From an archaeon (lineage in GTDB: Archaea; Nanobdellota; Nanobdellia; Pacearchaeales; GW2011-AR1): 42,119 nucleotides of DNA. Shown here piece after piece: positions 1-41,159 of the stretch. The stretch is from NCBI GenBank assembly GCA_009992175.1, contig JAACWA010000011.1:1-42119 (forward strand). Direction: 5' to 3'. Made by a program: the position numbers and the translations under genes. The notes beneath the pieces were generated by a model, which saw only the letters and a program-made list of their open reading frames with translations, ran no database searches and was not told the origin of the DNA. Within the stretch, counting starts at the first letter, position 1; every line of letters starts with the position of its first letter.

Positions 1-3000
1 TGTTTTTTCAAATTTTCTTCTAATGTTGCTCCCAAACTTGTAAGAGTGTCTCCTTTAGTTTTATCAAAATTAAAAACATCAGTACCAGAAAGACTTTGTT
101 TATCTATCCAACAACGTATATTTAAATTTCCACAATAACCAACATCAATCCATCTCTGATTTGTTCCAGGATAAAGTGGATCATTTCCTTTTCCAGGATT
201 TTCAGTTGCACAAACTCTAGTAACTCCTTCATTTGCTAAATCTGGAGAAACTGCATTAGAGATTCCTGCTTCTAAATTTGGATTCAAAAGACTAATTAAA
301 TTTGGACTTCCAGAGACACATTCTTGTTGACTTGTAATGTTAGAATTTATTGCTTGGTCTTTGATATATTGGTCACTCAAATAATCCACTGCAAAGTCTG
401 TACTTACAGTTCCAAAACCACACTCTTCTTGATTATTCACTTGAACACAGAGTTGGTTATATCCTTCAGCAGCTGTAAAGTCTTTAGTTTGAGTTTCATA
501 TTCTCCAGGAGGAATATATCCAGAATCAACTGAAATTGGGCTTGAAGAATCACTATAATATGAAGACCCATCTCCTTTCAAATAAACCCTATAATATGCC
601 CCTTGACTATTTCCAGCAAAAATATGGTAAAACACTTTATACTGAACTTGTGGGGGATTTGTTACACTTGAAAAAGGAATCACATCAAACTTAGCAGTAA
701 ATTGTGGGGGACTTCTAGATTGAGTTAAAGCATCTAGTGCTCCTTGACCTTCTGGATAAACTACTGACAAAAAGTTTTTACAAACAAGACTTCCAACTTC
801 TTCTTGACTTCTTGCTTTAAAGGCACTGTTAGCATTAAGTGAATAATATTGAACTAAGTAATCAGCTGAACTTTTGGCATTTGCAAGTGCTCCTTGTATT
901 CCTCCAACATACTCTCCTCCATTTCTTGCTCCTCCTCCAAAAATCCAACTGTCAATTTTTGGAACAGCTAAGTTTAACAAAGGTAATGCTTGTCTCCAGA
1001 AAAATTCACACATATAAATACTATTAATTTCGTCACAAATTCCAACAGTTTCTCCCTTTTCAAGACTAGTGTTTAAACATTCTCTGTAAGACTTTGCAAC
1101 TGAAAGGAAGTTATCTACTCCAGCTTTAACTCCCGTTAAACAAACAGGGACATAAATTCCTTCATCCCAATTTGGTAAACAAAGCATAACACTTCCAACA
1201 ACTCCAGATTGAATTACATCTCTTACAGTGTAGTCTCCACCATAATTACATCTAGAGCTCGGACAAATTACTGGGTCACAAGCATTAAATAAAATTTTAC
1301 AATCGGCTGGACTCATAATATCAGTACATTCTACTAATGGAACATCAACTGCAGGAGAACCAACTTTGTAAATAGTGTCATCATTGTCAAGCTTCAAATT
1401 TTTTATTCCATCTTTGTAAGCCCTTGAAACTTTTTCTATATTTTTAACAGCCCTATCAACCAAAGTTATCGCTTCCCCTCCTTTTAGTGAACCAATACTT
1501 GTGTAACTGTTAGAATTTCCTAAATTAATTAATTGACAATTGTCATTCATTGGATTGTATTCCACCACTCCATCTGAACCTGCATTACAAATCCAAAAGC
1601 TGTTTATTCTAGCGGATAAGTCATAAGTTCTCGAGGAAGAAGATGCTGAAACAGTCTGAGGAATATAAGCATACCACCCTTTTTGAGCTTCAACTGGAAC
1701 CAAAGCTGGAAGTCCTTTATAGGGATCTGTTTCATAATATTTTATTTCAGGATTTTTAATTGGAGTTCCTTCAGAAGTATCTTTCTTTTTGAATGAAGAA
1801 TATTTTGATTTAATTGATTTTGAAACTTCATCTGAAACCTTATTTTTATTTTCCCCATAAACTTCATTGATATAATACTCTCCAGAAGAAGCTGGTTTCA
1901 AAGTAACATAATATAAATTATTTTCATAAACAATTGGTTGAACCGGTTCTCCAGCTTTGAGTGAACCAAATCCATTAGGAACAACTGCTCCATCATAAAT
2001 TTCTTCAATACTATTTTTGTCTGAACGAATTCTAATTGTTGCTCCTTCTAAACCAGAATCTTTTATTTTTTGGTCCGCATTAAGTCTAACAAGGTTTTCA
2101 TTAACATTGTTTTCAACGCCCTTAAGAAGAATAAACAATCTTTCTCCATATTCTAATTCTTTATTTCCCAAATATAAATTTGCATAAAGTTCAATTTGCT
2201 TTGCATCTTCAAGGCTATAAATTCTTCCAAGGTTTTCTCCAGTTAAATATTCTTTAACCTTTTTAACATCAACAAATTCTCCTTTAGTTTTTGGATTTTC
2301 AAAATTATCTCCCAGGAAATTCAAACTCTCTTTAATTTTTTGTGAATACCCTTTGTCCATCAAAGTCTTTTGATTAACAATATCCTCTCCAAAAATTCCT
2401 CCCGAGTTTGTTACTCCATCAATTTCTTGAAGAGTTTTAAGTCCATCATTTTGTTTCTCCATTTCTTTAGTCATCTGACTAACTTGGTCTTCTATTTTTC
2501 CAGAATTGTCAAACAAACATTGTTCTTTAGTAGAATATTTTATATCAATTTGACCTTCACAATAAGAATTCCATTCCCTCATAACATTTTTTCTTGCAAG
2601 AGATTCAACTCCTGAATTAAGAAGTAAATTTTTGAGTGTCAAAACTGCTCCAGTAATTTCACAAGTTGTTTGGAAAGTTTTAACAACAGTTCCAAGGTTG
2701 TCTGAAATTCCCTGTAAAACATTAATTCTATTTGTCCAACTTTCAATTCTAGCTTTTGTTTCTTCTGGAGAAAGTTGAATAGACCTTTTTTCAATTCCAA
2801 TTGTGAAATTAAAGTCAACATTACTAATGTCTCTAACCTTTGTGTTCACTGAAACTTTAGCAACCTTTTTGAGATTAATTTTTGTAACAACAAAGATATA
2901 ATCTGTTCCTCCAATATTGAATGGAACATCTTTTTCTAAATTTGAATTTATTGAAGTTAAAAAAGATCCAGTTTTTGAAAGAATACTTCTTCCTTGCAAA

Positions 3001-5261
3001 CTAAAATCTAAACTTGCCCATTTTTCATCTTTAATTTCATTTAATTTAATGTACTCTTGATTATTTGAATTTTCCGAACTAGTTACAGAAGAAGTTCCAG
3101 TTATTTGAAGTTGTCCGTCTTGAAAATTTTTCCATTTAAGAGAATTCAAGAAAGTAATTGACTCTTGGGGAAGAGTGTAATCTTTAAAAGATCCAGAAAC
3201 AACTTTATATTCAGAGGTATCCATCCAAACCGATTTATCTGGAGACCATAACCACCCTATTTTAGGAGATTGATATGTTGTTAAAGGTTGATTTAAAGGA
3301 ACCCCATATTTAAAATATAAAACACCGGATCCTCCTGGTTTATTCATTGTAAAAATTTGATTTTGTTGGGTTGATGAACTAGTAGAAGATTTGAATAAAT
3401 TTCCTAGATAAACAATCTCTCCTTTTCTCATTTGAATTGAATTTTTAACAACCTCCTCTCCTTTTTTTATACTAATTTCAATTCCATACTCCTCGAAACT
3501 TGGTTCACGAACTCCTTCAAAAGAAATTTCTTTGTAATCTCCATCTATTAAAAAAGTCTGTCTTGAAACTCCAACATTAGAATATCTTGGAATGTTTTCA
3601 CAAGGGGATATGTCTAAATTAGAACCAGAATATTTTGATTTAAAGTCTTCACAATATTTTTTCAAGTCTTCACTTTGGTACAATTTATCTGAAAGATTAA
3701 TTAATTGTGCTAAAGCTTGTTCTCCTAAATATCCATCTAACTTTTCTTCATATTTTTGATTCGCAAAGTTTTCTTGAATTTGTTTATAATCTCTAACTGC
3801 ATTATTTTGGTATCCAATAAGAGTTTGATTCTTCAAATCTAAATTTGTTCCAACTCCAAAACTTTTAATTTGTACTTTTGTTCCAAAGGCCTCTTGAGCT
3901 GAACCATAATTAATTCTTTTAAAATTGTTTCCATCAAATAACCAATTAAATTTGGGTTCTACAAAACCAAAAATGGTTTTGAAAACATCCGAAGCTGATT
4001 TATCCTTTCTCAAATCATTTTTTGCATATCTTGCAACTTTACTTAATGTATCTGAATCTAATTTATCAACCGGTTTACCAGGAACTGTAACTAAATAAAT
4101 TAAAGAATTTTGAATGGCATCTAATTTGGATTTGGGGTCTGTTCCAACATACCCCAAGTAAACTGCCTTTTCATCATAATTAAATGGAAGACGATCTCCA
4201 ACTTGATAAGTCTTCTCTGAAGAGCCACCAATAGATAAATCAATTGTAGGTTCAATTCTTAAAGGAAAAGTTTGTGTTTTTTCATCCCCTTCACAACGAA
4301 CATCAACTGTTTGCCTTAACCCTTCCTTAATTGGATCCGAAACAACTTGACATTTATTGTCATAAAAATATTCTCCTTTTTTTACTTCAAAAGTTTCAGA
4401 ATTAACTTTCATAACTGCTCTTGTGTCTTGCCCTTCTACTGAATCTAATTTTAATGTTGAAGAAGCCATACATCCAAAACCAGGAAGGAAAAAACTAGAA
4501 GATTCTTCACCAACATTTAATTTTTTGCTTAAAACTTTTTGTTTTTCGGCTCCTCCAGAATTTGCATTGAGTCCTGAATAAATTGAAATTGAGGCAGAGG
4601 TGGTTTGAATGTCATCGGCCCTCAAGTAACCCATATGATTAAAAAAAGCATATTGACCATATAATTCTTTGAATTCGGGGTCAGTCATAAGGGAAAGGTA
4701 AAACCTATAATTTTCTAAACCAAAAGAATTTCTCAAGTCATAAATAATTCTTGCTGAAAGTCCTCCAACAATTGATTCAGGCATTGAAGACTCATTTCCA
4801 TTTCTTGCTAAAAATATTATTGCATAACCTATATTATTCCATTGTCCATTACTTAGTTGAGTATTTAATCCTAAAGCAGGATAACTCGGAATAAACCCAA
4901 CACTACTAACTCCTTCTGGTAAACTTGATCCAAAATCAATTGATTTAATTGAAGTAACTGTGATTAAAGGATTAACTTTTAATGCTTGAAGTTGGCAATA
5001 AACTGGAACATTTTGTTCTTCAAGTAAATCACTTCTAACAACTGGAGGAGTACATCCACCTGGAACAACTCTTATGATAAAATCCTGTCCACTAGAACAA
5101 ACTTCATTATTAAAATTGAAATCTTGGTTTGTTCCAAAACCAAAAGAAGAACCAGCTAATCCTGGTTGAGTAAGTTGAAAACTAGATTTTTCATAAGCAG
5201 AAGTAAAACTAAGAATAAAAATAAGAATAAAAATTCCAAGAAAAATTTTATTTATTTTCAT
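1..5261 (-). CDS. Giant secreted surface protein, C-terminus beyond the window
   Basis: Reading the minus strand from the ATG at 5261 gives 1,753 codons with no stop before base 1, so the gene is incomplete at its C-terminus. The N-terminus is a clear secretory signal peptide: MKINK, a hydrophobic stretch to about residue 20, and probable cleavage after SFTSA (residue 22). The rest is mostly polar, rich in Asn, Ser, Gly and Tyr, with scattered Cys and repeated beta-rich-looking stretches; one has LPGFGC near residue 255 followed by a second Cys. No enzymatic motif was recognised. The start overlaps the stop of the upstream membrane-protein gene (ATGA at 5258-5261), so the two are probably co-translated. 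Large secreted proteins of this kind are common in DPANN genomes, where they are thought to be surface or attachment proteins; that role is inference. Many short open frames on either strand inside it are shadows. Confidence 0.9.
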   Translation of the reverse strand, partial: MKINKIFLGIFILIFILSFTSAYEKSSFQLTQPGLAGSSFGFGTNQDFNFNNEVCSSGQDFIIRVVPGGCTPPVVRSDLLEEQNVPVYCQLQALKVNPLITVTSIKSIDFGSSLPEGVSSVGFIPSYPALGLNTQLSNGQWNNIGYAIIFLARNGNESSMPESIVGGLSARIIYDLRNSFGLENYRFYLSLMTDPEFKELYGQYAFFNHMGYLRADDIQTTSASISIYSGLNANSGGAEKQKVLSKKLNVGEESSSFFLPGFGCMASSTLKLDSVEGQDTRAVMKVNSETFEVKKGEYFYDNKCQVVSDPIKEGLRQTVDVRCEGDEKTQTFPLRIEPTIDLSIGGSSEKTYQVGDRLPFNYDEKAVYLGYVGTDPKSKLDAIQNSLIYLVTVPGKPVDKLDSDTLSKVARYAKNDLRKDKSASDVFKTIFGFVEPKFNWLFDGNNFKRINYGSAQEAFGTKVQIKSFGVGTNLDLKNQTLIGYQNNAVRDYKQIQENFANQKYEEKLDGYLGEQALAQLINLSDKLYQSEDLKKYCEDFKSKYSGSNLDISPCENIPRYSNVGVSRQTFLIDGDYKEISFEGVREPSFEEYGIEISIKKGEEVVKNSIQMRKGEIVYLGNLFKSSTSSSTQQNQIFTMNKPGGSGVLYFKYGVPLNQPLTTYQSPKIGWLWSPDKSVWMDTSEYKVVSGSFKDYTLPQESITFLNSLKWKNFQDGQLQITGTSSVTSSENSNNQEYIKLNEIKDEKWASLDFSLQGRSILSKTGSFLTSINSNLEKDVPFNIGGTDYIFVVTKINLKKVAKVSVNTKVRDISNVDFNFTIGIEKRSIQLSPEETKARIESWTNRINVLQGISDNLGTVVKTFQTTCEITGAVLTLKNLLLNSGVESLARKNVMREWNSYCEGQIDIKYSTKEQCLFDNSGKIEDQVSQMTKEMEKQNDGLKTLQEIDGVTNSGGIFGEDIVNQKTLMDKGYSQKIKESLNFLGDNFENPKTKGEFVDVKKVKEYLTGENLGRIYSLEDAKQIELYANLYLGNKELEYGERLFILLKGVENNVNENLVRLNADQKIKDSGLEGATIRIRSDKNSIEEIYDGAVVPNGFGSLKAGEPVQPIVYENNLYYVTLKPASSGEYYINEVYGENKNKVSDEVSKSIKSKYSSFKKKDTSEGTPIKNPEIKYYETDPYKGLPALVPVEAQKGWYAYIPQTVSASSSSRTYDLSARINSFWICNAGSDGVVEYNPMNDNCQLINLGNSNSYTSIGSLKGGEAITLVDRAVKNIEKVSRAYKDGIKNLKLDNDDTIYKVGSPAVDVPLVECTDIMSPADCKILFNACDPVICPSSRCNYGGDYTVRDVIQSGVVGSVMLCLPNWDEGIYVPVCLTGVKAGVDNFLSVAKSYRECLNTSLEKGETVGICDEINSIYMCEFFWRQALPLLNLAVPKIDSWIFGGGARNGGEYVGGIQGALANAKSSADYLVQYYSLNANSAFKARSQEEVGSLVCKNFLSVVYPEGQGALDALTQSRSPPQFTAKFDVIPFSSVTNPPQVQYKVFYHIFAGNSQGAYYRVYLKGDGSSYYSDSSSPISVDSGYIPPGEYETQTKDFTAAEGYNQLCVQVNNQEECGFGTVSTDFAVDYLSDQYIKDQAINSNITSQQECVSGSPNLISLLNPNLEAGISNAVSPDLANEGVTRVCATENPGKGNDPLYPGTNQRWIDVGYCGNLNIRCWIDKQSLSGTDVFNFDKTKGDTLTSLGATLEENLKK

Positions 5262-7093
5262 ATGAAACTAACCTCCACTTTTTTTGAATCAACTAAAGTA
5301 TAAACCACTTGAAGTTCCTCGAGGGAAGTTGGAGAATTATACCTATCAACATCAATCTGAAGTTTATTGTTTGAACTTAAACTTGATTCACTTACAGTAA
5401 AAGTTTCACTCCCCCCTCCAACTAAAACGTTTGAAATATTTTGTTCAGGTACAGCTACATCACTACATTCTTCATGAGTTATTCCAAAAATTCCTCCAAT
5501 TCCAGAAGGAACGTCTACACATTGTTTAATTGTTGTTGCATCAAACTTTATACTTGAATTGTCATACAAATAAACTTTAAGATTATACTCTCCAGCACTC
5601 AATTTTATTTTATTTTGTTCAGGATAAAGAAATACTTTGGAATCATCATCAGAAGAAAAATAAACTACCGCTTTTTCATTAAATTTACTGTTTTTAATTT
5701 TTAATGAAACTTGTTTTTCATATTCTTTATCTAAAATTAATGAAACACTTCCCCCATTAACTGTTGAAATTTCTTCAGATTTTTCTTTATATCCTTTTGA
5801 ATTTACAATTATTTTTCCATTTGCACATTGAGGGAAAGCGCCTTCCAGAGTTCCCCCTTTAGTTTCTCCAATTTGGCAACTTGAACCTAAACAGTCATAA
5901 CTTATATTTCCCTCGACATTTCTTAAATCTGAACTAGAAAGCTCAACTGTAAAATTAGAAAATGGACCATCACACAAAGGATAAGAATTTTCAACGAACT
6001 CTCCAGCTGTTGAAACTTTTTTTGCAACGTTTCCATCAATCACAATTGCTAAAGGAAATTGAAATGTTTCGCCATTATTTGTTAACTGTACTAAAACGGG
6101 ATATTTCAAACTATAAACAAAATGGTAAGGAGCATAACAGAACCCTAAAATTCCCAATCCTTGTTGAATTCCAACAGGTTTTGAAACTAAAACCGCAGAA
6201 CTTGCAGGTTCAACTTGATAATTACTGGGCCATTCTTGAAAATTAAGAACTTTTACTTCGGAATCTATTGGAATCTTTAAATTAAAATAATCATTCTTCT
6301 CTCCTGAATTTTTTAAAGCAAAAAAATTGTCTTGGGTTGCTCTCTTTAATGTTGAAAAAATTTCATCTGCATTCCAAATTTTTGGAGCACAAGTAAGTTC
6401 TACTCCATCAACAGGAGCATAAGTTCTTAAAACATCAACCGAATAATTTTCTAAGAAAAGTTCCTTTCTTTCCTTGTTGTCAAAACTAATTGCATCATTG
6501 TATAAATTTCCAAGTTCAGAATCAACTTCAACTTGATGTGTTGACATAGTAGCTGTCTCTGCATCTTTAGTTACTTGAATGTCCATATCCACAAAAACCT
6601 GAACTAAATTGTCCTTAATCACAACTTCTGAAGTTGGAACTCCTTTAGTAATTTTATATCCTTCTTTAACAAAAGAATCAAAATTACAATTTGGAATTTC
6701 TTGGTCTAAATAAGTTTGCATTTGATTTTGAAGTTCTTTTTTTTCAGGAACTTGATTTATTTCTAAATTGTTTTCACTAATTGAATGCCAATAAGGAATT
6801 CCGGTCCCTAAGAAATCTAACTGTGAAGAAAAAGGCATGTAACTTGAACCAGGAATAAATTCAGGATTAAAGATATACCCTCCTTTTGACTCCATAATTT
6901 TTATTCCAACTAAAGTTTTTTCCTTTACACAATTTAAAAAATTTGTTTTAATAGGTTCAAAAGTAGAAGAAACTGAACTAGGAAAAAGAGTATCTTTAAA
7001 CACAAAATAAGAAGCAATTGCAACAACTAAAACAATTGCAATAATTACAAAAAATGTAACTTGTCCTCCCTTGTTTACACCCCTCCTGGCCAT
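5258..7093 (-). CDS. Membrane-anchored surface protein with type III-like N-terminus (611 aa)
   Basis: The N-terminus is short and basic with a Lys-Gly-Gly-Gln step (NKGGQVTFF, residues 7-15), then about 20 hydrophobic residues (to about 32), resembling a prepilin-type signal or a simple N-terminal anchor. The remaining ~570 residues are extracytoplasmic in character: polar, predicted beta-rich and with about ten Cys, including a C-x4-C pair near residue 387. No catalytic motif is visible. It is the first gene of a two-gene operon with the giant secreted protein, overlapping it by four bases. A TATA-like box lies 22-34 bases upstream of the ATG. I infer a structural or assembly partner of the giant protein. 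It resembles the pilin-like proteins at 34753-38905 only in its N-terminus. Confidence 0.85.
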   Translation of the reverse strand: MARRGVNKGGQVTFFVIIAIVLVVAIASYFVFKDTLFPSSVSSTFEPIKTNFLNCVKEKTLVGIKIMESKGGYIFNPEFIPGSSYMPFSSQLDFLGTGIPYWHSISENNLEINQVPEKKELQNQMQTYLDQEIPNCNFDSFVKEGYKITKGVPTSEVVIKDNLVQVFVDMDIQVTKDAETATMSTHQVEVDSELGNLYNDAISFDNKERKELFLENYSVDVLRTYAPVDGVELTCAPKIWNADEIFSTLKRATQDNFFALKNSGEKNDYFNLKIPIDSEVKVLNFQEWPSNYQVEPASSAVLVSKPVGIQQGLGILGFCYAPYHFVYSLKYPVLVQLTNNGETFQFPLAIVIDGNVAKKVSTAGEFVENSYPLCDGPFSNFTVELSSSDLRNVEGNISYDCLGSSCQIGETKGGTLEGAFPQCANGKIIVNSKGYKEKSEEISTVNGGSVSLILDKEYEKQVSLKIKNSKFNEKAVVYFSSDDDSKVFLYPEQNKIKLSAGEYNLKVYLYDNSSIKFDATTIKQCVDVPSGIGGIFGITHEECSDVAVPEQNISNVLVGGGSETFTVSESSLSSNNKLQIDVDRYNSPTSLEELQVVYTLVDSKKVEVSFI

Positions 7094-28162: not shown

Positions 28163-29551
28163 ATGAAACTTAAAAAAAGTCTTTTACTTTTACTCTCTCC
28201 CCTCTTCCTAATAGGATGTTCAAATTTTCCAAATATTTCCAAAGAAGAAACTCCAAAACCTAAAATTGATACAGTTTATGTAACAAAAGAAATTCCAGTA
28301 AAAATAAATCCCCTTGACACTTTGAATGGACCTAATGCTTATTCAAAAGCAAAAGAATTTTTTGAAAGAGGACAAAATTTTTATGAAGAAGGAAAAGATG
28401 ATTCTTCAAAAGTTTATTTCCAAAAAGGAATGAGACTACTTTCACAATCAGCCCTTTCATTAGAAGATTATAATTTTATAGACCCTCTTGAAAATTTGTA
28501 CAACCTTGAACAATATAAATCACAAAAAGAAGCTTTAGAAAATGAAATAGAAGTTTCAAAAGAAGAGATAGCAAATGCTGAAAAAAAATTCCCAATGGGA
28601 GAAAGATTTGCAGAAAAAATTGCTTATTATAAAAAACTTTACGAAACTAGACAAAACAAATGGTTTATGAATTCCTTAGAAAAATTTTTACAATATAAAC
28701 CTTTTATAGATTCTGTCTCGAATGAAAAAGCAATTCCAAATTTGATAAAATATATGTATCCTGTAGAAAGTGGTATGGAAACCTACATAAAATCTAGAGC
28801 AGGAGCAAAAGGAATTGCTCAATTCATGACTCAAACAGCAAAATTATGGGGACTAAAAGTAATGGGAATCTGGTATGATGAGAGGATGGACCCATTAAAA
28901 GCAATCCCTGCTTCAATGGATTACATAAATTTTCTTTATTCTGATTTGGGGGATCCTAGTCTTGCAATAGCTGCTTACAACTGTGGAGAAGGAAGAGTCA
29001 TTGACAAATTAAAAAGATTTAACTCTTTTAACTTTGATGAACTTTTAAAAAAAAGAGTTTTGCCAAGAGAAACATTAGAACACCTTCCAAAAATATATGC
29101 ATATCAGGAAAAAAGCGAAGGAATAAATTTTGAAAATCCTAAAAAAGATACTATTCTAGACAATTTATTAACAAAAAATTTTGATACCTTAAATGTACAC
29201 CAACAAGCTAGTTTTGGAATTCTTGCAAAAATTTTGGGAATCTCAAAAAAAGATTTAAAAAAATATAATCCTGCATATGGGCTCGATGCAACCCCTCCAG
29301 AAAAAATAGTAAAAGGTGAATATTCTTTTGAAATAAGAGTTCCTAAAGGAACAAAAGAAAATTTAGTAAAAAAATTTTCAAAATTAAAAGAAAAGTATGT
29401 TTTTGAAGGGGGAACTTACACCATAAGAAAAGGAGATAACCTTGGAAAAATAGCAAGAAAATTTGGAGTTTCTTTATATCAATTAAAAAAAGCAAATGGA
29501 TTTCCAATAATTATTTATGCAGGACACAGATTAATTATTCCGGGAAATTAA
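28163..29551 (+). CDS. LysM lytic transglycosylase lipoprotein (MltD-like)
   Basis: A 462-residue exported protein. Residues 1-19 are a lipoprotein signal with lipobox LIGC (Cys19). A helical spacer with tetratricopeptide-like and coiled-coil character runs to about 170. The SLT/MltD domain (about 185-310) has catalytic Glu202 in YPVESGMET, AGAKGIAQFMTQTAKLWGL, DERMDP, AIAAYNCGEGRV and LPRETLEHLPKIYAY. A linker domain precedes one LysM domain (about 418-460: YTIRKGDNLGKIARKFGVS, then AGHRLIIPG). The enzyme cleaves peptidoglycan glycan strands. Archaea lack peptidoglycan, so the target is likely bacterial; the gene is probably acquired, although its base composition matches its neighbours. Confidence 0.92.
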   Translation: MKLKKSLLLLLSPLFLIGCSNFPNISKEETPKPKIDTVYVTKEIPVKINPLDTLNGPNAYSKAKEFFERGQNFYEEGKDDSSKVYFQKGMRLLSQSALSLEDYNFIDPLENLYNLEQYKSQKEALENEIEVSKEEIANAEKKFPMGERFAEKIAYYKKLYETRQNKWFMNSLEKFLQYKPFIDSVSNEKAIPNLIKYMYPVESGMETYIKSRAGAKGIAQFMTQTAKLWGLKVMGIWYDERMDPLKAIPASMDYINFLYSDLGDPSLAIAAYNCGEGRVIDKLKRFNSFNFDELLKKRVLPRETLEHLPKIYAYQEKSEGINFENPKKDTILDNLLTKNFDTLNVHQQASFGILAKILGISKKDLKKYNPAYGLDATPPEKIVKGEYSFEIRVPKGTKENLVKKFSKLKEKYVFEGGTYTIRKGDNLGKIARKFGVSLYQLKKANGFPIIIYAGHRLIIPGN

Positions 29552-33014: not shown

Positions 33015-33660
33015 AAAAGATTTGGAAAACATTAAAGAAAAGCTAATTGAACACATAAATTCCAATTATGAAAAATCGCAAGCAGAAGAATTTATAAAAA
33101 ATATAAAAGGGATGAATGATGAAGAATTTACTAAATTTTTAAAAGAACAAGGGTTAATTGGGGGGGAAAATCAAAAATCTCAATGTATCTTTTGCTCGAT
33201 TATTTTTGGAGATATTCCTTCCACTAAAATTGGAGAAAATGAAAAAGCGATTGCAATTTTAGATATAAAACCAGCTTCATTAGGACATTCTTTAATAATT
33301 CCTAAAGAACATATTGAATCAAAAGAAAAGTTACCTGGAGAAGTAGGTAAATTGGCAATCACAATTCAGGAAAAACTAAAGAAAACTTTTAATCCTAAAA
33401 AAATAGACTTAATTTCAACAAATGTTATGGGCCATGAAGTTTTGAACGTTCTCCCTATTTATGAAGAGGAATCTCTTGAATCGGATAGAAAAAACTTAAC
33501 CCCCGAAGAATTAAAAAAAGTAAAAGAAAAAATAGAAAAAGAAACTAAAAAAGAAGAACCCAAAGTTAAAGAAAAAGATAATAACAAAGAAGATTCGGAA
33601 GAAAAAACAAAAGAAGAAATTAATGAAAAAAATACTTGGCTCCCAAAAAGGATTCCTTAA
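33001..33660 (+). CDS. Degenerate HIT-family protein
   Basis: A 219-residue protein with a helical N-terminal domain (1-58), a HIT fold (about 60-160) and a Lys/Glu-rich tail. The HIT fold starts with the zinc-type CIFCSIIFGDIPSTKIGE and LDIKPASLGHSLIIPKEHI, as in true members. Where the catalytic His-x-His-x-His triad should follow, the sequence reads GHEVLNVLPIYEE, with none of the three His. Nucleotide hydrolysis is unlikely; binding may remain. The gene ends in a four-base overlap with the convergent prepilin peptidase gene. Confidence 0.82.
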   Translation: MTQTKKDLENIKEKLIEHINSNYEKSQAEEFIKNIKGMNDEEFTKFLKEQGLIGGENQKSQCIFCSIIFGDIPSTKIGENEKAIAILDIKPASLGHSLIIPKEHIESKEKLPGEVGKLAITIQEKLKKTFNPKKIDLISTNVMGHEVLNVLPIYEEESLESDRKNLTPEELKKVKEKIEKETKKEEPKVKEKDNNKEDSEEKTKEEINEKNTWLPKRIP

Positions 33661-34511
33661 AACCCAATACTTCTAAAAAACAAATCAAAAAAAGTTGTCT
33701 CTAAAAAAATCCAAAGAAGAATAAAACTAATAAGAAAAACTGGAGCAAACTGAATTCCATAACGAATCAATACCTTTTTTCCTCTTTTCTTTAAACGATT
33801 AATTTCTTCTTCACTAAGTCCATCCCAATTTGCTCTAAAAGTTTTACCTTTAACTTTAATGTCTTCGCTTAACCAATCTCCTGGAGTCAATTTAGAGGGA
33901 ATAACTTCACGCACCATACAAAAATCATCAACAGATTTTAAGAATAAATAAAAATAAGGAAAAACAAAAATAAGAATTCCAAAATAAAAGAGATAATTGA
34001 TATAAAAACTTAACAAGATAAAAACAAAAGCAAAGAAGGTACCCCAAATTATCAATTTTTTATTTTTATTAAATAAAACTAAAAATCCTTTTTTAAATTT
34101 TTTAAAATTAATAACTCCAATTATTAAACTTAAAAATATTCCATATATTGCTCCCACAAAAAGATAAATCAAAATAAACAATAAAAATAATTTCAAATTC
34201 TGAGCAAAACTAGAAAAAATAGGAAGAACAGCTCCTAAAGAAATCATAAGTTTCATATCTCCTCCAGCAAACATTTTATTATAATAAAATAAATTTCCCA
34301 ACACTAAAAAAATTGAAAAACCTAAAATTCCTTGATAAAAAAGTGAAAAATCAGTTGAAACAAAAAGAGAGTAAAAAAACCTAAATCCAAAAGCAAAAGC
34401 AATTAAACTAAAATTAAGCCAATTTGGAATCTCTCTAGATTTGAGGTCTGAAATTACTGCAAAGATTAACCACACAAAGGCCAACCCATATAAAAAAATT
34501 ACCTCAATCAT
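33657..34511 (-). CDS. Prepilin (class III) signal peptidase, A24 family
   Basis: A 284-residue membrane protein of about eight helices. The catalytic Asp pair is present: the first in AVISDLKSREIPNWLN (about residue 22) and the second in the GxGD-type GGDMKL (about residue 84). A soluble C-terminal segment (PSKLTPGDWLSEDIKVKGK to about residue 245) followed by a last helix is an extension common in archaeal members. It cleaves prepilin leaders after Gly and is the last gene of the pilus-like locus. The ATG at 34511 is preferred over an in-frame TTG one codon upstream. Confidence 0.92.
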   Translation of the reverse strand: MIEVIFLYGLAFVWLIFAVISDLKSREIPNWLNFSLIAFAFGFRFFYSLFVSTDFSLFYQGILGFSIFLVLGNLFYYNKMFAGGDMKLMISLGAVLPIFSSFAQNLKLFLLFILIYLFVGAIYGIFLSLIIGVINFKKFKKGFLVLFNKNKKLIIWGTFFAFVFILLSFYINYLFYFGILIFVFPYFYLFLKSVDDFCMVREVIPSKLTPGDWLSEDIKVKGKTFRANWDGLSEEEINRLKKRGKKVLIRYGIQFAPVFLISFILLWIFLETTFFDLFFRSIGF

Positions 34512-34542
34512 CAAGATAAATAGGATTTAGAGTTTATAAAAA

Positions 34543-34692
34543 TTAATTTTTCTTCTTTTTCTTTTTGTCAGCCGATTCTTTCATCTTGATATTTCCAAGC
34601 CTAAACTTTCCCCCTGTTTTGTAGGGATGCTTCTTCTTCTCTCTGAGCTTATCTTTCTTCTTATTTCTTCTTTCTTCACTATCTCTTGCCAT
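34543..34692 (-). CDS. Small Lys-rich protein (49 aa)
   Basis: A 49-codon frame encodes a very basic protein: MARDSEERRNKKKDKLREKK, then HPYKTGGKFRLGNIKMKES and a Lys-only tail of six plus Asn. The central KFRLGNIKM looks like a short structured strand. Over a third of the residues are Lys or Arg. It could be a ribosome- or nucleic-acid-associated microprotein. It sits between the pilin-like genes and prepilin peptidase but has no membrane segment. Confidence 0.6.
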   Translation of the reverse strand: MARDSEERRNKKKDKLREKKKHPYKTGGKFRLGNIKMKESADKKKKKKN

Positions 34693-34752
34693 AAATATCT
34701 AAAGAAGAATAAGTTTAAAACAATTACTAATTATTAAAAAACAAATAAAAGA

Positions 34753-35196
34753 CTAATTAATAAAACACTTGTCTTCTTTTGCTAAAGAACTAACATCATA
34801 CTTTCCTGTGCTTACACTGTTAACTCCTTTCTTTCCATCAATTACAATGTCTTCACATTTTAAATCACAAGAGATTGAGGCACATGAAGGAATTTTATAT
34901 TTTGCAAAAGTTTTTTCGCTTGAAAAAACTGCACAACTAGATTTAATCTTTAAATTATCTTCATTTGATTTCAAAGTTCTCTCACCAGAACAATAACCAT
35001 ATTGATTGTTTAAAGTACATGCAACATTACAATCGTCAATAACCGAATCTACATTTGAGGGATTAAAATATTTCTGAAAAGCACTCCATCCTGTGGCAAA
35101 ACCCCAAACAAGAGCAACAAGAACAATTAAACCTAAAATTAAAAGAATTATGGTATTTGTACTCATCCCTTGTCCTTTTTTATTTTGAATTGTCAT
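34753..35196 (-). CDS. Pilin-like protein with class III signal peptide
   Basis: A 147-residue protein. The N-terminus NKKGQGMSTNTIILLILGLI is a textbook archaeal type III signal: basic leader, Gly cleavage site, then a hydrophobic alpha helix. The mature domain has 10 Cys, including CNVACTLNN, SCASISCDLKCE and a C-terminal Cys, so it is probably disulfide-rich outside the cell. The role as a pilin or minor subunit is inferred. Confidence 0.85.
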   Translation of the reverse strand: MTIQNKKGQGMSTNTIILLILGLIVLVALVWGFATGWSAFQKYFNPSNVDSVIDDCNVACTLNNQYGYCSGERTLKSNEDNLKIKSSCAVFSSEKTFAKYKIPSCASISCDLKCEDIVIDGKKGVNSVSTGKYDVSSLAKEDKCFIN

Positions 35197-35238
35197 CTCT
35201 CTTCAAGTAAATAGAGTAAAAAATATTTATAAAACTTC

Positions 35239-35598
35239 CTATGAGGGGACCTGGTACTGAACTGAAAACAAAAGAACCTTTTTACCTCCAAAAAATAAGA
35301 CTCCCCCCTTGGTCTCAAACTTTTCTTCATAAAAATAATTTCTCCCGTACTCCTCTGTAATATTAAAAAAAGTTTTTAATTTGTCCTCCTTCATTCCATT
35401 ATTTTTATAAAAAGAATATTCATCCGCATTTGAATTAACCTTTTGTAAGATACTTATTCCTACAAAAGAATTACCTGCCCTAAAATCTGAAATAAAAAAG
35501 GTGAGAAGGGCAAATCCACAAAGAGCAAAAATTCCAATAACTAAAAGAGTTACTGGAAGGTCTCCTTTCTTATTAAAAGTTTTAATTTTTTTAATCAT
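35239..35598 (-). CDS. Pilin-like protein, short (119 aa)
   Basis: N-terminus MIKKIKTFNKKGDLPVTLLV carries the Lys-Lys-Gly step followed by a hydrophobic helix with a Cys. The rest is a small polar domain ending in strands (GGVLFFGGKKVLLFSVQYQ). It overlaps the upstream 122-aa frame's stop by four bases (ATGA at 35595-35598), so translation is coupled. Confidence 0.8.
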   Translation of the reverse strand: MIKKIKTFNKKGDLPVTLLVIGIFALCGFALLTFFISDFRAGNSFVGISILQKVNSNADEYSFYKNNGMKEDKLKTFFNITEEYGRNYFYEEKFETKGGVLFFGGKKVLLFSVQYQVPS

Positions 35599-35930
35599 TT
35601 TTTACTATATCTCAAAGCAACCTCCGCTTTTGTTTGATTATAATCTAAATTAAATTTATCTTCACTTGCCATTTTAGAAAGAGTTTTTTCCATAATCAGT
35701 CTTTTTGTTTCAGAACCAATTGAAACATAAGTGAAAAGAGATTTTTTCAAAAAAGGGTCTCCTCCCTCAAATGAAGATTTTCCAGTAATTCCTGGACGGA
35801 AATTTCCTATCTTTTTTGTTCCCCCCAAAAGAGAAGCTCCAAAAATAAAAAAAACCATCATAATTACAATTAAAATAGTTGCAACTAACCAAGTTAGAGT
35901 CTCACCTATTTGTGCTTTTTTAGTTTTCAT
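35595..35930 (-). CDS. Pilin-like membrane protein (111 aa)
   Basis: From the ATG at 35930 the protein starts MKTKKAQIGETLTWLVATIL, with a basic leader, a likely cleavage region at Lys-Lys-Ala-Gln-Ile-Gly and a hydrophobic helix. The domain that follows is small and lacks Cys. A start 11 codons upstream (35963) overlaps the preceding gene; the ATG at 35930 follows that gene's stop at 35932-35934 almost directly and gives a more normal leader. Confidence 0.75.
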   Translation of the reverse strand: MKTKKAQIGETLTWLVATILIVIMMVFFIFGASLLGGTKKIGNFRPGITGKSSFEGGDPFLKKSLFTYVSIGSETKRLIMEKTLSKMASEDKFNLDYNQTKAEVALRYSKK

Positions 35931-35931
35931 T

Positions 35932-36606
35932 TTAATTTGTGTTTTCTTCAACTTTCCCCACAATTGAAAGAACCTTAATCAAATAAACTGAATCTGAATT
36001 TAATTTCGCAAAAAATTCCTGATTAAAACAAGTTGCAAGTTTACTTTTTCCTGAAACGGAAACATCACAATCAGATTTCCAATTTTTATTCCCTTCTGAA
36101 ATTAAAAGAGAAGATTTTCTTAAATCTTCCTCTAAAAAAAATTCAACTTCGAAGTAATAAGGGGGCCTTTTAAATTCTTCATTAATTGTTAAATTTAAAG
36201 AACATTTTTCTAAAAAATTATCTTTAAAGTCTTCTCTGAATCCTCCTTGGTTATTTAATAAAAGAGGATTAAATTCCCCCCCAAAATAAATACAATCTGC
36301 AACTTTTTGACCTAAAATTTCGGATTCTTGCTTTCTTACATCATAATTTTTTCCATAAAAAGAATTTACCATTAACACTACTCCTACTGCAACAATAACA
36401 AGAATTGCAAACCAGTAAATAGAAAGAAGTTTATCTCCCTTTTTATTTATGCCCTTGGGAGTATTTATGCCCTTGGGGGTATTTATGCCCTTGGGAGTAT
36501 TTATGCCCTTTAGGGTATTTATGCCCTTGGGAGTATTTATGCCCTTTAGGGTATTTATGCCCTTGGGAGTATTTATGCCCTTTAGGGTATTTATTTTTTT
36601 TATCAT
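35932..36606 (-). CDS. Pilin-like protein with 6-aa repeats in its leader (224 aa)
   Basis: After MIKKIN the protein holds eight six-residue units of the form Thr-Leu/Pro-Lys-Gly-Ile-Asn (residues 7-54). The pilin-type sequence NKKGDKLLSIYWFAIL and a hydrophobic helix follow. Without the array the leader would read MIKKINKKGDKLL, close to the next pilin-like protein's MIKKIKTFNKKGDL, so the repeat has expanded a normal leader. The mature domain has four Cys. The DNA is a matching 18-bp tandem array. It overlaps the upstream pilin-like gene by four bases. Confidence 0.85.
   Translation of the reverse strand: MIKKINTLKGINTPKGINTLKGINTPKGINTLKGINTPKGINTPKGINTPKGINKKGDKLLSIYWFAILVIVAVGVVLMVNSFYGKNYDVRKQESEILGQKVADCIYFGGEFNPLLLNNQGGFREDFKDNFLEKCSLNLTINEEFKRPPYYFEVEFFLEEDLRKSSLLISEGNKNWKSDCDVSVSGKSKLATCFNQEFFAKLNSDSVYLIKVLSIVGKVEENTN
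36445..36588 (-). repeat. 18-bp tandem repeat array, eight units
   Basis: Eight in-frame 18-bp units with plus-strand form ATTTATGCCCTTGGGAGT or the variant ATTTATGCCCTTTAGGGT. The first three and alternate later units are the GGGAGT/GGGGGT type; units four, six and eight are the TTTAGGGT type, giving a 36-bp higher-order pattern over most of the array. In protein they read Thr-Pro-Lys-Gly-Ile-Asn or Thr-Leu-Lys-Gly-Ile-Asn. Length change would keep the frame. Confidence 0.97.
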
Positions 36607-37016
36607 TTTATTTTTGAAAAAGTTAAGATATAAAATCCTTCACGGCCAGGATCAGTATCCTTGTACGCGGTCACATTTATATCATTAAAGAAGTGATACT
36701 TTGTTCCTCCTTTTTCGCTTAATTTAATTGTAACATCATTTCCTTCAATTTTTAAAATATCTGAAAAATCAATTCCATTTTTATCTGAAACTTCTTTTAA
36801 ATCTTGAAGATTCACATACATTTTCATTGTGGGTCTTGCTGAATCAATCAAAAGAGCTATATTCTTAGAATATGCATCTTCAAGTAAAACTGCTCCACTT
36901 CCTTGTTTAATAAGAAATAAAACAAGAATCATTAAAAAAAGAATATTTAGAACAATAAAGATTATATTCTCCACCAAAAACTCTCCTCTTTTATTTTTAC
37001 CTTTGAATGAGTTCAT
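36603..37016 (-). CDS. Pilin-like protein (137 aa)
   Basis: N-terminus GKNKRGEFLVENIIFIVLNI has the Arg-Gly cleavage site and Glu five residues after Gly, the classic type IV pilin E+5, followed by a long hydrophobic helix. The mature domain is polar with a mixed alpha/beta look and no Cys. It overlaps the downstream gene by four bases. Confidence 0.85.
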   Translation of the reverse strand: MNSFKGKNKRGEFLVENIIFIVLNILFLMILVLFLIKQGSGAVLLEDAYSKNIALLIDSARPTMKMYVNLQDLKEVSDKNGIDFSDILKIEGNDVTIKLSEKGGTKYHFFNDINVTAYKDTDPGREGFYILTFSKIK

Positions 37017-37051
37017 AACTTAGAGAAGAAAAAAGGAATTAATAAAGTTTT

Positions 37052-37960
37052 TTAACTTGAAGTTAAAATTTGATCACAATTTAAAGCCTTAAATTCAGGA
37101 GAATTTACTTCAACAATCCAGGAAGGAACATATTCATTTCCACTTTGTCCTCTTACAACCGCAGCAACCAAAACTCCTCCAGTAAGCCCGGTAACAACTC
37201 CTCCAGCAACTGCAACCTTTGCTCCAGTTAGTAATGCTGCTGCACCAAATCCACTCGCTCCTCCTGTTAAAGGAGTCAAAGCAAGACCTCCTGCAACGAG
37301 ACCTGCACCCGCTCCAATTCTCCAAATCCATCCCCAAGTACTAACATCACTAGTAATTCCCATCAAAGAATAATATTGTTTATCCAAATTTATTTTTCCA
37401 TAATCTCCAGAATAAGAACTAAGAAAGTTTCTTAAATTTAAATAATCTAGATAAGTCTGGCCATCAGCTCTTTTTGTTTTATCAAGATAATTATAAAGTT
37501 CCTTTTTATCAAATTCTCCAGTTCCATTAAAAATTTCTTTTTTAACCGAATCATCAAAAGCTATCATGTCACAAATTGAACATTGCAAATCAGGAATTAC
37601 TTCCGAACCCACATAATTTACCTTACCCTCACCAAACATCCACCAACATTCTGCTAATTGGTCCGCAAGAGCTTGATAAATTTCATCCTTTGTCTCAACT
37701 TTAATGACATCTGGTTTAGTCATTACTTCACAACTTCCATCCACACTTAAACAAAGATACTCTCTTTTACATTGTAATGGAAAAGTGTCAGTGGGTAAAA
37801 TTGATTTTCCCCGGGTTATAACAGAATTGTGACATATATCTTGTTCAGTTTCTTTTCCTAAATTCAACCTAAAAATAAAAAATAAAATAACTGCAAAACT
37901 TACAACTAAAATTATTAAAATAACAATTTGTTGTGTTGTAAGTTCTCCTTTTTTAAACAT
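37052..37960 (-). CDS. Pilin-like protein with a C-terminal glycine-rich hydrophobic region (302 aa)
   Basis: N-terminus MFKKGELTTQQIVILIILVV is a pilin-type signal and helix. The middle (about 43-135) has eight Cys. Residues about 214-271 are extremely Gly/Ala/Val-rich (GAGAGLVAGGLALTPLTGG, then GFGAAALLTGAKVAVAGGVV), a glycine-zipper type membrane-hairpin unusual in pilins. A short polar tail with one Cys ends the protein. It may be membrane-inserting at the far end. Confidence 0.82.
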   Translation of the reverse strand: MFKKGELTTQQIVILIILVVSFAVILFFIFRLNLGKETEQDICHNSVITRGKSILPTDTFPLQCKREYLCLSVDGSCEVMTKPDVIKVETKDEIYQALADQLAECWWMFGEGKVNYVGSEVIPDLQCSICDMIAFDDSVKKEIFNGTGEFDKKELYNYLDKTKRADGQTYLDYLNLRNFLSSYSGDYGKINLDKQYYSLMGITSDVSTWGWIWRIGAGAGLVAGGLALTPLTGGASGFGAAALLTGAKVAVAGGVVTGLTGGVLVAAVVRGQSGNEYVPSWIVEVNSPEFKALNCDQILTSS

Positions 37961-38062
37961 CTAAATTACCCCCAGATTTCTAAACAAAGTATAAAGTCCT
38001 ATTAAAGCTATCGAAAAAAATACAATCCAGATAAGATATTTTATGAATTCATCTAAATTCAT
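37961..38062 (-). CDS. One-helix membrane microprotein (33 aa)
   Basis: An ATG at 38062 overlaps the stop of the upstream gene (ATGA) and encodes MNLDEFIKYLIWIVFFSIAL plus IGLYTLFRNLGVI, a single membrane helix. Its TAG is immediately followed by the ATG of the next gene. The exact packing makes it a likely real gene of the pilus-like operon. Confidence 0.65.
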   Translation of the reverse strand: MNLDEFIKYLIWIVFFSIALIGLYTLFRNLGVI

Positions 38063-38565
38063 TTTTTCTTAACCTCAATTTTATCTTCAGATTTGGAAAT
38101 TTCAACATTTGTTCCCCCATTAGATGGTTTTTCTATTTCGAAAGTAGTAAATTTGTTTAAATTTTCTACTATCAAGCAAACTCCTGAATTGTCACACTCA
38201 CTAATTTGTCTGTCTTTAAACCATAAAGCATTGTCAAAACTAACTTCATCACAAATACATAAACAATTTTCTCCTGCACAAGAATTAGGTTTGGTTTCTC
38301 CCCCTACAAAACTAAAAATGCTCCATGAAGAAGGAGTAATGTCTGTTAATTTTTCACTAGAAATATCTCCTGAATTAACCCTTTGAAGAATCTCTTTCAT
38401 TCTTCCAATCGTTGACTTTGCCTCATTTAATTTTTGATCCTGAGAACTTGAATAATAGATAGAAAATAAAAGATAAATTAAAAGAGAAATTCCAATTAAA
38501 GCAATAACTAATTTTACTACTTCTGTTGCGAGAAACATCCCTTTTTTATTCTTTTTTTTATCCAT
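38059..38565 (-). CDS. Pilin-like protein (168 aa)
   Basis: N-terminus KKNKKGMFLATEVVKLVIAL is a pilin-type signal and helix. The outer domain has a clustered Cys group (SCAGENCLCICDEVSF) and later C and C, about six Cys in all, and ends in a Lys-rich tail. It overlaps both neighbours by a few bases. Confidence 0.85.
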   Translation of the reverse strand: MDKKKNKKGMFLATEVVKLVIALIGISLLIYLLFSIYYSSSQDQKLNEAKSTIGRMKEILQRVNSGDISSEKLTDITPSSWSIFSFVGGETKPNSCAGENCLCICDEVSFDNALWFKDRQISECDNSGVCLIVENLNKFTTFEIEKPSNGGTNVEISKSEDKIEVKKK

Positions 38566-38728
38566 AAAAAATTCTCCAAAAGTTTCCTAAGCTAGCGTTC
38601 GTTGGAAGAAGATTAAAAAATTCCAAAATTCTATCTTTAAAAATAAAATAAACTCCTAAAACTACAGCGACAACTACAAGAGCTCCAACAATTAATTTAA
38701 TTATTTGTTCTACCGTTAATTCCGACAT
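38558..38728 (-). CDS. One-helix membrane protein (56 aa)
   Basis: MSELTVEQIIKLIVGALVVV and a basic stop-transfer (FIFKDRILEFF) give a single helix with a short tail. There is no Lys-Lys-Gly cleavage site. It overlaps the next gene's start by eight bases, so it belongs to the operon. Confidence 0.7.
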   Translation of the reverse strand: MSELTVEQIIKLIVGALVVVAVVLGVYFIFKDRILEFFNLLPTNASLGNFWRIFYG

Positions 38729-38734
38729 TTTATT

Positions 38735-38905
38735 TTATCCTCCCCTAAAAATTCCTTTTAATCCATCTAAAACGGAAATCCCCTTTCCCTTTAAGAAAAA
38801 AATTGAAATCATTAAAACAGTAAGGATAGCAAGAGAAATTAAAATCCATGGAAGATACTCTGAAACAATTCCTTTTTTACCAAAAAATCTCCTCTTTCTA
38901 TTCAT
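38735..38905 (-). CDS. Short pilin-like protein (56 aa)
   Basis: MNRKRRFFGKKGIVSEYLPW is a basic leader with Lys-Lys-Gly, then a hydrophobic helix (about 18-38) and a short Gly-rich tail ending FRGG. Glu is four residues after Gly. At 56 residues it is nearly all signal and helix, possibly a minor initiator subunit. Confidence 0.75.
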   Translation of the reverse strand: MNRKRRFFGKKGIVSEYLPWILISLAILTVLMISIFFLKGKGISVLDGLKGIFRGG

Positions 38906-38948
38906 AAAATTAAGAAGTTAAATGGATTTAATAAAGATTACTAAAACC

Positions 38949-41099
38949 TTATCCTAGTAAACCACTAAGCACAGTTCCACTTAAAATTGAAAGGGCAAGA
39001 ACACTTAAAAGTGCAACAATGAAATAAAGAATCATTCCTTTCTTTAAATTAATTCCAATTTTATTTGTCATTTCTAATTTGTCTTCCCCTGAATCAATTG
39101 TTACAAGTGTTGAAGTTAAAATAAAAATTATTTCAATTAAATAAATTCCAACAGAAATTTGTAAAAAATATGGAGGAATCATGTCCTTATATTTAAAAAT
39201 ATCAACCAAATTTCCAATGGAACCTAAACTACTTGCCCCCACCCCGGAGAGGTCAGCAACATTTAACATCCCCAAAATTGAAGTAATCATCGCTGCAAGA
39301 CCAACAACAATTCCTGAAAGAAGAGGAGCTAAAAAAGTCATATTACTTTTCATGTCACTAGTAATTTCTGCGAGTAAATCTCTTAACCTCATCGTAATCT
39401 TATCTAAATTTTTTATATATTCAGAAATACTCATTAAACTCACAGCTGCAATTTTTAATCCTTTTTTACTTGATTCAATTAAAACCCTCATTGAAGTTGA
39501 AATCAAATCCGAGGGGAAAAATCTTATTGCTCCCCTAGTTTTGTCAAAGATTGCTTTTTCGACACTCATTCCCATTTGTCGAATATTATAATTTACTTTT
39601 CCAAAAAATTCTCCAGTCATAAGGCCTCTATTTGATTCTGCAACTTTACCAAAAACCAATTCCGGAGGAACTCCATTTCCAAGTCTATTCCCCAATTGAA
39701 ATAATGAATTATTGAATTCACTCTCAAGTTCTTTTGTTTTCTTTCTCTCTTTAATTAAATCTTTTGTTTTTTCTTTATACGCGATTGAAAAATAAAGAGC
39801 AATTGAAATTGGAAAAAGCATTCCTAAAAGAAGTGCTCCAAGTCCAAAGGGACCTTTAACTCCCGTAGGAGTTTCAATAAAATCAAAAAAGTTTCCATTT
39901 CCTAAAAAACTAAGTCCAACTTGACTAAAAGAAAAATCTTTTGCAATTCCGAGTGATTCTGGAATAGGTGTAAACTGAAAGATTAAGGGAATTAAACTTA
40001 AAATTATGAATGGCAATACTATCCAAAAAGCTTTTCTGTAGGGGGCACTACTTTTATACTTAGGATAAAGAGGATTTTTTTCAAGCAAAGTTGTTTCTCC
40101 ATATCCTCCTGGACGCATATTCAAAACTTTATCTGTTAAGTAATAAACCATAAAAGGAACAATTAAGTTAAACAAAATAAAAACATGAACATAAGTTAAA
40201 ATTCCTCCAATCATTGCTGAAGCAAGAGGAATTAAAGCTAAACCTAAAGTGGGTAAAACTACTCCCAACATATACACATTTGTTAATGGACTTCTAACCG
40301 AATGACTAAATTTAAGCATCTTCTCATAAACTCCATCAAGAACAACTTGTAATCCTTTTTCTAAAGTTGAAATACGACGTGAAGAATCTGGTTCAAATAA
40401 ACTAGATTCAATTAAGTGAAAACCTTCAATAAATTCTGTAGAATATCCTCTCCAACTTTCTAAGTAGTGATCTAAACTTTCTTTAATTGTGGAATATTTC
40501 CCTATTTCAACATTATAGAATATTTTTTTGAAATCAAGTGCAAGAGGATATTGTAAATGTTCTGATGCAAACTGAATTGCTTTTTCTAAATTGGGAGTGT
40601 GTCTCATATAAACCACAATATAAAGAATTGCAGGTACCATTTGACTTGATGCCTTAAGCCTCCATTTGTTAGCAAGTCTCTCAGGATATTGATTCAAAAA
40701 ATAAAAAAGAAAAATTGAAAAAATAACCATTAAAAAAAAGAAAAGAAAAGGAAACTCACTTCCAATTAAAGTTACACCAACTGAAAACAAAAGTCCAATT
40801 AAAAAAACTGCTAAAAATGCAGTAACTGAAAGCCCTATCGCTTGCCAAGGTTCAACAGAAAGGTGAGCAGATTCTAAACTTTTAACAATTTTCTCTTCAT
40901 CTTTTTTAGAAGGTTTTATATGAATAAAATTTCCAAGGCTGTTAGCCCATCTTTCATAAGTTGTATACTCTCTTGAAATTTCTCCCTTAAATTTGTCATA
41001 TGAACTACTGTAATCACTAACACTACCAGAAGAATTCATTTGACCTTCTATTTTAGCTCCATATTTTTTCAAAACCTCATCTACACTTTCTCTTTTCAA
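38949..41099 (-). CDS. Tandem type II secretion F/FlaJ/TadC-like platform protein
   Basis: A 716-residue polytopic protein with an N-terminal cytosolic region (1-85) and two copies of the GSPII-F domain. The first is about 130-300 (QMVPAILYIVVYMRHTPNLE and a cytosolic helical bundle), the second about 450-620 (LFQLGNRLGNGVPPELVFGK, then LLSGIVVGLAAMITSILGML). Membrane helices flank each. This is the inner-membrane core of archaeal type IV pilus and archaellum machines. The start is TTG at 41099, backed by a strong Shine-Dalgarno. No ATPase (FlaI/PilB type) is visible in the window; it may lie beyond the right edge. Confidence 0.9.
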   Translation of the reverse strand: MKRESVDEVLKKYGAKIEGQMNSSGSVSDYSSSYDKFKGEISREYTTYERWANSLGNFIHIKPSKKDEEKIVKSLESAHLSVEPWQAIGLSVTAFLAVFLIGLLFSVGVTLIGSEFPFLFFFLMVIFSIFLFYFLNQYPERLANKWRLKASSQMVPAILYIVVYMRHTPNLEKAIQFASEHLQYPLALDFKKIFYNVEIGKYSTIKESLDHYLESWRGYSTEFIEGFHLIESSLFEPDSSRRISTLEKGLQVVLDGVYEKMLKFSHSVRSPLTNVYMLGVVLPTLGLALIPLASAMIGGILTYVHVFILFNLIVPFMVYYLTDKVLNMRPGGYGETTLLEKNPLYPKYKSSAPYRKAFWIVLPFIILSLIPLIFQFTPIPESLGIAKDFSFSQVGLSFLGNGNFFDFIETPTGVKGPFGLGALLLGMLFPISIALYFSIAYKEKTKDLIKERKKTKELESEFNNSLFQLGNRLGNGVPPELVFGKVAESNRGLMTGEFFGKVNYNIRQMGMSVEKAIFDKTRGAIRFFPSDLISTSMRVLIESSKKGLKIAAVSLMSISEYIKNLDKITMRLRDLLAEITSDMKSNMTFLAPLLSGIVVGLAAMITSILGMLNVADLSGVGASSLGSIGNLVDIFKYKDMIPPYFLQISVGIYLIEIIFILTSTLVTIDSGEDKLEMTNKIGINLKKGMILYFIVALLSVLALSILSGTVLSGLLG

Positions 41100-41105
41100 A
41101 ATTGC

Positions 41106-41112
41106 TCACCTC
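41106..41112 (-). promoter_or_regulatory. Shine-Dalgarno sequence deciding a TTG start
   Basis: GAGGTGA on the minus strand, six bases before the TTG at 41099. The match to the 16S rRNA 3' end is strong and supports the TTG as start of the platform protein. Confidence 0.7.
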
Positions 41113-41159
41113 TGAAATAACAGTTAAAAATAATTAATAAATGTTTAGAAAACCAAGTT

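Follow-up and report, generated by a model that had tools for sequence, protein, structure and literature searches.

Organization of the locus

The window analyzed in this work is a stretch of 42,119 nucleotides that corresponds to one entire contig (G000:C26) of a draft genome of 609 kb, which is distributed over 45 contigs and about 84% complete. Its left end is occupied by the gene for a giant secreted protein (3..5261, minus strand), the reading frame of which stays open for 1,753 codons from the ATG to the contig edge, with the 3' end lying beyond the contig. An earlier note on this DNA had pointed to an uninterrupted frame running off the left edge and taking up more than 12% of the window. 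This description holds: a frame break or stop near the left boundary was looked for and none is present, and the frame covers 5,259 of the 42,119 bases (12.5%). At the local GC content, 1,753 codons would stay open by chance with a probability of around 10^-61, and this value together with the existence of homologues rules out a chance open frame. A contaminant origin is likewise ruled out by homologues in near-relative genomes that show the same two-gene arrangement. Searches of the 45-contig, 84%-complete assembly with the core, the SLT family and the tail of the nearest relative did not recover the 3' end of the gene. Of this very large secreted protein, the first two-thirds are present in the window. 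Gene callers that permit open ends would report such a frame. In fragmented genomes, genes of this kind turn into 5-kb "hypothetical" blanks, and the informative domain is lost at the cut.

The N-terminus of the giant protein, MKINKIFLGIFILIFILSFTSA-YE, reads by eye as a Sec-type signal peptide (residues 1-22; 5196..5261, minus strand), in agreement with the secretion originally proposed, and a hydrophobic start is common to all full-length homologues. The gene is coupled to that for a 611-aa partner protein (5258..7093, minus strand) by a four-nucleotide stop/start overlap (ATGA, 5258..5261). Translation and alignment assign to the partner a prepilin-like N-terminus, one membrane helix and a large, cysteine-containing ectodomain. 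Its class III (prepilin-type) signal motif KGGQVTFFVI (residues 8-17; 7043..7072, minus strand) recurs in 21 of 22 partner proteins, the N-termini of which consist of a charged stretch followed by G or A and then by Q.T.F and a hydrophobic helix, a pattern that we take to match archaeal prepilin-type signals. A comparison of the partner profile with solved structures did not yield a credible match; an actin-like match of the partner (E=0.028) is weak and was judged to be due to chance.

Two further genes of the window deserve mention. A type IV leader (prepilin) peptidase (33657..34514, minus strand; Peptidase_A24, E=1.9e-13) is a candidate for processing the partner. It belongs to a type IV pilus-like cluster (33657-42095, minus strand), in which it is the sole Pfam match. 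The cluster further encodes some seven small proteins that bear KKG-type signals, a TadC/FlaJ-like protein of 716 aa with multiple membrane spans and a cysteine-rich protein of 311 aa. A 224-aa protein encoded at 35932-36606 on the same strand starts with about nine tandem GINT[PL]KG repeats that are followed by a pilin-like signal. The second gene encodes an MltD-like lipoprotein with lipobox, SLT and LysM (28163..29551, plus strand), the only SLT protein in the assembly, which may act alongside the giant protein. This lipoprotein is bacterial-looking despite its residence in an archaeal genome, and SLT frames of 459-464 aa are likewise present in two related genomes (G005 and G010).

Distribution and inheritance of the two-gene unit

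The giant protein is not an orphan but belongs to a family that is near-universal within its order. Homologues of 1,657-3,246 aa are encoded in 49 of 55 near-relative genomes, as a rule in single copy and in some cases split across contigs, with the longest open frame at 3,247 aa. A profile of the conserved C-terminal core region (C-core), built from 25 alignment rows, is matched in 156 of the 371 genomes that sample the phylum and, by our count, in 67 of the 72 that sample the order; in other orders of the class the family is present in divergent form. Named relatives are mostly Candidatus Pacearchaeota, which bears out the DPANN affiliation suggested in the earlier note. Two genomes of one genus that belong to the same taxonomic family (G386 and G392) are devoid of the giant protein and contain only weak partner matches, possibly as a result of secondary loss. 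In G017 the giant gene is broken by a TAA within the N-terminal core region (N-core), upstream of the SLT domain in slot A (L060, 513-7307).

Giant and partner genes are adjacent in 25 of the 27 loci compared, and the identical ATGA overlap occurs in about half of the relatives' pairs in these loci. A core is listed for 114 genomes, and in 102 of these the partner gene immediately precedes the giant gene on the same strand; nine of the remaining 12 carry the two genes on separate contigs and three are without a partner among the matches listed. The partner profile matches 314 of the 371 phylum genomes, often several times per genome, and the partner family is therefore broader than that of the giant protein. 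The neighbors common to the window and its close relatives are housekeeping genes (named by eye), e.g. those for ribosomal proteins, FtsY/SRP54 and a phosphoglycerate-mutase-like protein, which points to vertical inheritance of the pair. Pilus genes were not found beside the pair in the loci compared.

Architecture of the core

The architecture was read from an alignment of 42 rows. The N-core (residues 23-600; 3462..5195, minus strand) contains conserved cysteines and the motif VRSDLLEEQ.VPV.C. It is followed by a variable region that we term slot A (residues ~626-775), in which column occupancy is low and about a quarter of the 42 rows align with the window protein. In the window protein slot A contains one WxWS module of about 90 aa (residues 626-723; 3093..3386, minus strand) that was delineated by an iterated profile. 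The module is present once in the window and in up to five copies in close relatives, where most copies reside in the tails. In two relatives (G017 and G024) an SLT domain takes the place of the WxWS module in slot A, and in a third (G037) an M23 domain lies between N-core and C-core. A conserved, mostly helical stretch (residues 790-1070; 2052..2894, minus strand), for which the structural model locally reaches pLDDT values of 70-87, leads to the C-core (residues 1165-1735; 57..1769, minus strand), the most conserved part of the protein, which is rich in cysteines (CDPVICPSSRC, LCLPN, PVCL, GICD). The contig stops right after the C-core, and relatives continue for another 70 to 1,540 residues.

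The earlier note had stated that no known domain is recognizable. This is correct for the visible part, in which neither Pfam nor NCBIfam domains were detected, but is largely an effect of truncation, as complete relatives in most cases have peptidoglycan hydrolase domains past the position of the cut or in the core slot. Structure prediction in pieces did not reveal a recognizable fold. AlphaFold models of residues 780-1753 and 22-780 (based on seven and six sequences, respectively) had a mean pLDDT of 51-52 and a pTM of about 0.3, searches with these models returned no match at E<=0.001 and only weak matches to Ig/FN3-like sandwiches, and comparison of the C-core profile with solved structures gave no credible match. 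In view of the low-confidence models and the lack of a fold match we make no claim about the fold of the core.

Exchangeable peptidoglycan hydrolases

Hydrolase domains were surveyed in 40 relatives from the same order by Pfam searches of tails and whole frames, complemented by genome-wide positions of SLT, Amidase_3 and M23 domains. A peptidoglycan hydrolase is part of the giant frame in 27 of the 40, mostly in the tail and sometimes inside the core. These domains are of the SLT (17 relatives), M23 (7), Amidase_3 (5) and Glucosaminidase (2, one of them with NlpC/P60) classes, with several relatives combining two hydrolase domains in one giant frame. Wherever SLT motifs could be matched, the catalytic Glu (ES) and the G[LV]MQI motif are retained. 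One relative of the 40 has an OmpA domain only; a tail of this kind, of the peptidoglycan-binding type and free of any recognized hydrolase, is encoded at L071, 7974-8942. A 3,246-aa relative (L045, 3755-13495) joins M23, Amidase_3 and an SGNH-esterase-like stretch, and its gene is followed by a second gene of the partner family (2347-3600).

A tree of the core with 58 rows shows at least 20 switches of domain class, a count that is approximate because the tree was calculated by a quick method and contains many open forks. Even sister rows differ in class, as is the case for L048 (M23) and L067 (Amidase_3). The window protein groups with that of its nearest relative (G006) at 100% support within a clade of eight rows, the other seven of which are all of the SLT class. 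The giant copy of this nearest relative is also cut at a contig end. A separate contig of 3.2 kb from the same genome encodes an open 922-aa tail with WxWS repeats, an SLT domain, an NlpC-like region and ankyrin repeats and, judged from this architecture, presumably represents the relative's own missing part. It is therefore probable that the tail missing from the window carried an SLT domain, most likely as a lytic transglycosylase, possibly together with a domain of the NlpC/P60-like type. The ankyrin repeats that end the probable secreted tail of the nearest relative continue in the next small frame (L059, 32-349 and 407-3175), and such repeats are also found at the end of L032.

For the remaining 12 of the 40 same-order relatives Pfam did not report a hydrolase. 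Three members of this set (L053, L054 and L055) resemble NlpC or SLT proteins on visual inspection. The NlpC-like regions of L059 and L053 bear this label by eye, and sequence searches gave no related solved structure for them. Outside the order but within the class, three of 17 tails contain a canonical hydrolase, and one further tail has GDSL and 3D domains. Since 12 of 40 tails in the order and most of those from other orders are without a recognized hydrolase, the core must itself perform some function. It is from these tails that an alternative view draws its strength, according to which the core is mainly structural, that is a giant surface or envelope protein (S-layer-like or an adhesin) the essential job of which is unrelated to bacteria and to which hydrolases were later added as accessories in some lineages. 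The core is near-universal and single-copy while many tails lack a recognized hydrolase, and its chromosomal context beside housekeeping genes is conserved. We nevertheless consider this view unlikely as a full account, because at least five hydrolase classes as well as OmpA and 3D domains have been recruited independently and repeatedly, all of which act on or bind one and the same polymer. This is hard to explain unless a function connected with peptidoglycan has been under selection in most of the order. As an ancestral role, a structural function is compatible with the reading that we favor below.

A probable scaffold directed against bacterial walls

Whose peptidoglycan is cut? The penicillin-binding transpeptidase domain (PF00905) was not detected in any of the 55 genomes and the Mur ligase domain (PF08245) in only one of them, with bacterial controls responding as expected in both cases. 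Without transpeptidase and almost without Mur ligase, the producers very probably do not make the substrate of the hydrolases themselves. The substrate would thus be foreign, with bacterial walls as the natural target.

We therefore favor the reading that the giant protein is a surface-displayed scaffold with exchangeable peptidoglycan-cutting domains that acts on bacterial walls, and put its probability at roughly 0.6. Core and pilin-like partner would be inherited as a two-gene unit, in which the partner would either anchor the scaffold or seat it on a type IV filament. The variable slots would provide the cutting enzymes, and the walls concerned would be those of bacteria that serve these archaea, themselves without peptidoglycan, as attachment sites, as food or as targets of attack.

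Cutting of foreign peptidoglycan could also serve nutrition, in that the walls of dead bacteria or detritus are degraded as food without any contact with living cells. The genomes are very small and their owners presumably auxotrophic, muramoyltetrapeptide carboxypeptidase is reported to be common in Pacearchaeota (PMC11537232), and the MltD-like lipoprotein is a separate putative enzyme of the same genome that would suit such a purpose. The giant size, the strict pilin-like anchor and the rapid swapping of enzyme classes, however, speak for a device that is held at the surface and matched to its target, and less for a soluble digestive enzyme, and scavenging appears improbable to us.

A more specific form of the favored scaffold reading, and not its opposite, is a pilus-tip complex, in which the partner, as a minor pilin, would prime a type IV filament whose tip is capped by the giant protein, in the manner of PilY1 with minor pilins, such that the hydrolases are pushed against the bacterial wall. 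The operon of a prepilin-like protein and a giant Sec-secreted protein, the genome's prepilin peptidase and pilus-like genes and the analogy with interchangeable Tad pilus tips in predation (PMC12075869) are consistent with this arrangement. On the other hand, the pair does not adjoin pilus genes, 611 aa is large for a pilin and the prepilin-type signal could also yield a plain membrane anchor, so that we advance the pilus tip only tentatively. Somewhat more doubtful still is the extension to a class-wide archaeal contact device that would consist of an inherited pilin-like anchor and a giant scaffold at the tip, with two slots into which different wall-cutters have repeatedly been plugged. 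If this extension were true, the pair would constitute a polymorphic, pilus-displayed drill against bacteria, and most Pacearchaeota would live on or prey upon bacteria and not archaea. Hosts are known for only a minority of uncultured DPANN archaea, and a near-universal chassis that repeatedly recruits different bacterial wall-cutters is a testable sign of bacterial partners or prey. The family supplies concrete proteins for expression, localization and assay.

Comparison with known systems

A family of extracellular proteins that reach 3,000 aa and contain a murein-like transglycosylase domain has been described for Pacearchaeota and Woesearchaeota, and contact with bacteria has been suggested for it (Castelle et al. 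2021, PMC8204110). These fam00969-type proteins resemble the family studied here in lineages, size, extracellular location and SLT-type domain and were proposed to bind or degrade bacterial walls, just as we propose. Compared by description, the two are very probably the same. The point about transglycosylase and bacterial contact is repeated in later work (PMC9723730, PMC10936187, PMC11537232), and chimney Pacearchaeota without the transglycosylase have been reported (PMC11537232). The main text of PMC8204110 deals with the transglycosylase domain only, the words "amidase" and "pilin" are absent from it, and the other hydrolase classes, their swapping, the internal slot and the partner found here are not described there. 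More generally, the open-access main texts do not describe a swapping of several hydrolase classes, a slot inside the core, a pilin-like partner that strictly accompanies the protein or a chassis that is near-universal, whereas giant transglycosylase proteins of this lineage are a kind already known since 2021.

Archaeal peptidoglycan hydrolases that kill bacteria have been established for other archaea (PLoS Biol 2025, PMC12352652). They share with the giant family their archaeal origin, the direction against bacteria that we presume for the latter and the shuffling of domains, and Nanoarchaeota are named as a group rich in them. Their distribution is patchy, with an enrichment on plasmids, whereas the giant protein is encoded by a near-universal chromosomal core gene in which turnover is confined to the catalytic domain.

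Polymorphic toxin systems feature a large secreted protein in which a conserved part is joined to a C-terminal enzymatic domain that varies. The giant family shares the conserved part and the variable C-terminal catalytic domain with its at least 20 changes of class, and differs by the second variable slot inside the core. No gene common to the loci compared directly follows the giant gene as an immunity gene would, and such a gene is not needed if the producer has no peptidoglycan. Delivery or processing domains were found neither in the window protein (Pfam, NCBIfam) nor in the tails (Pfam). Polymorphic toxin systems have been mentioned for archaea (PMC6393860).

With regard to the presumed mode of action, the closest parallels are the Tad (Kil) pili of Myxococcus, which bear interchangeable minor-pilin tips and are used in predation (PMC12075869), and PilY1, which acts with minor pilins (PMC5979040). 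The likeness is one of arrangement, and a tip location of the archaeal pair is presumptive. As a works-like analogy, all of these systems have large, exposed and variable domains that are tied to pilin-like proteins and come into contact with prey or surfaces.
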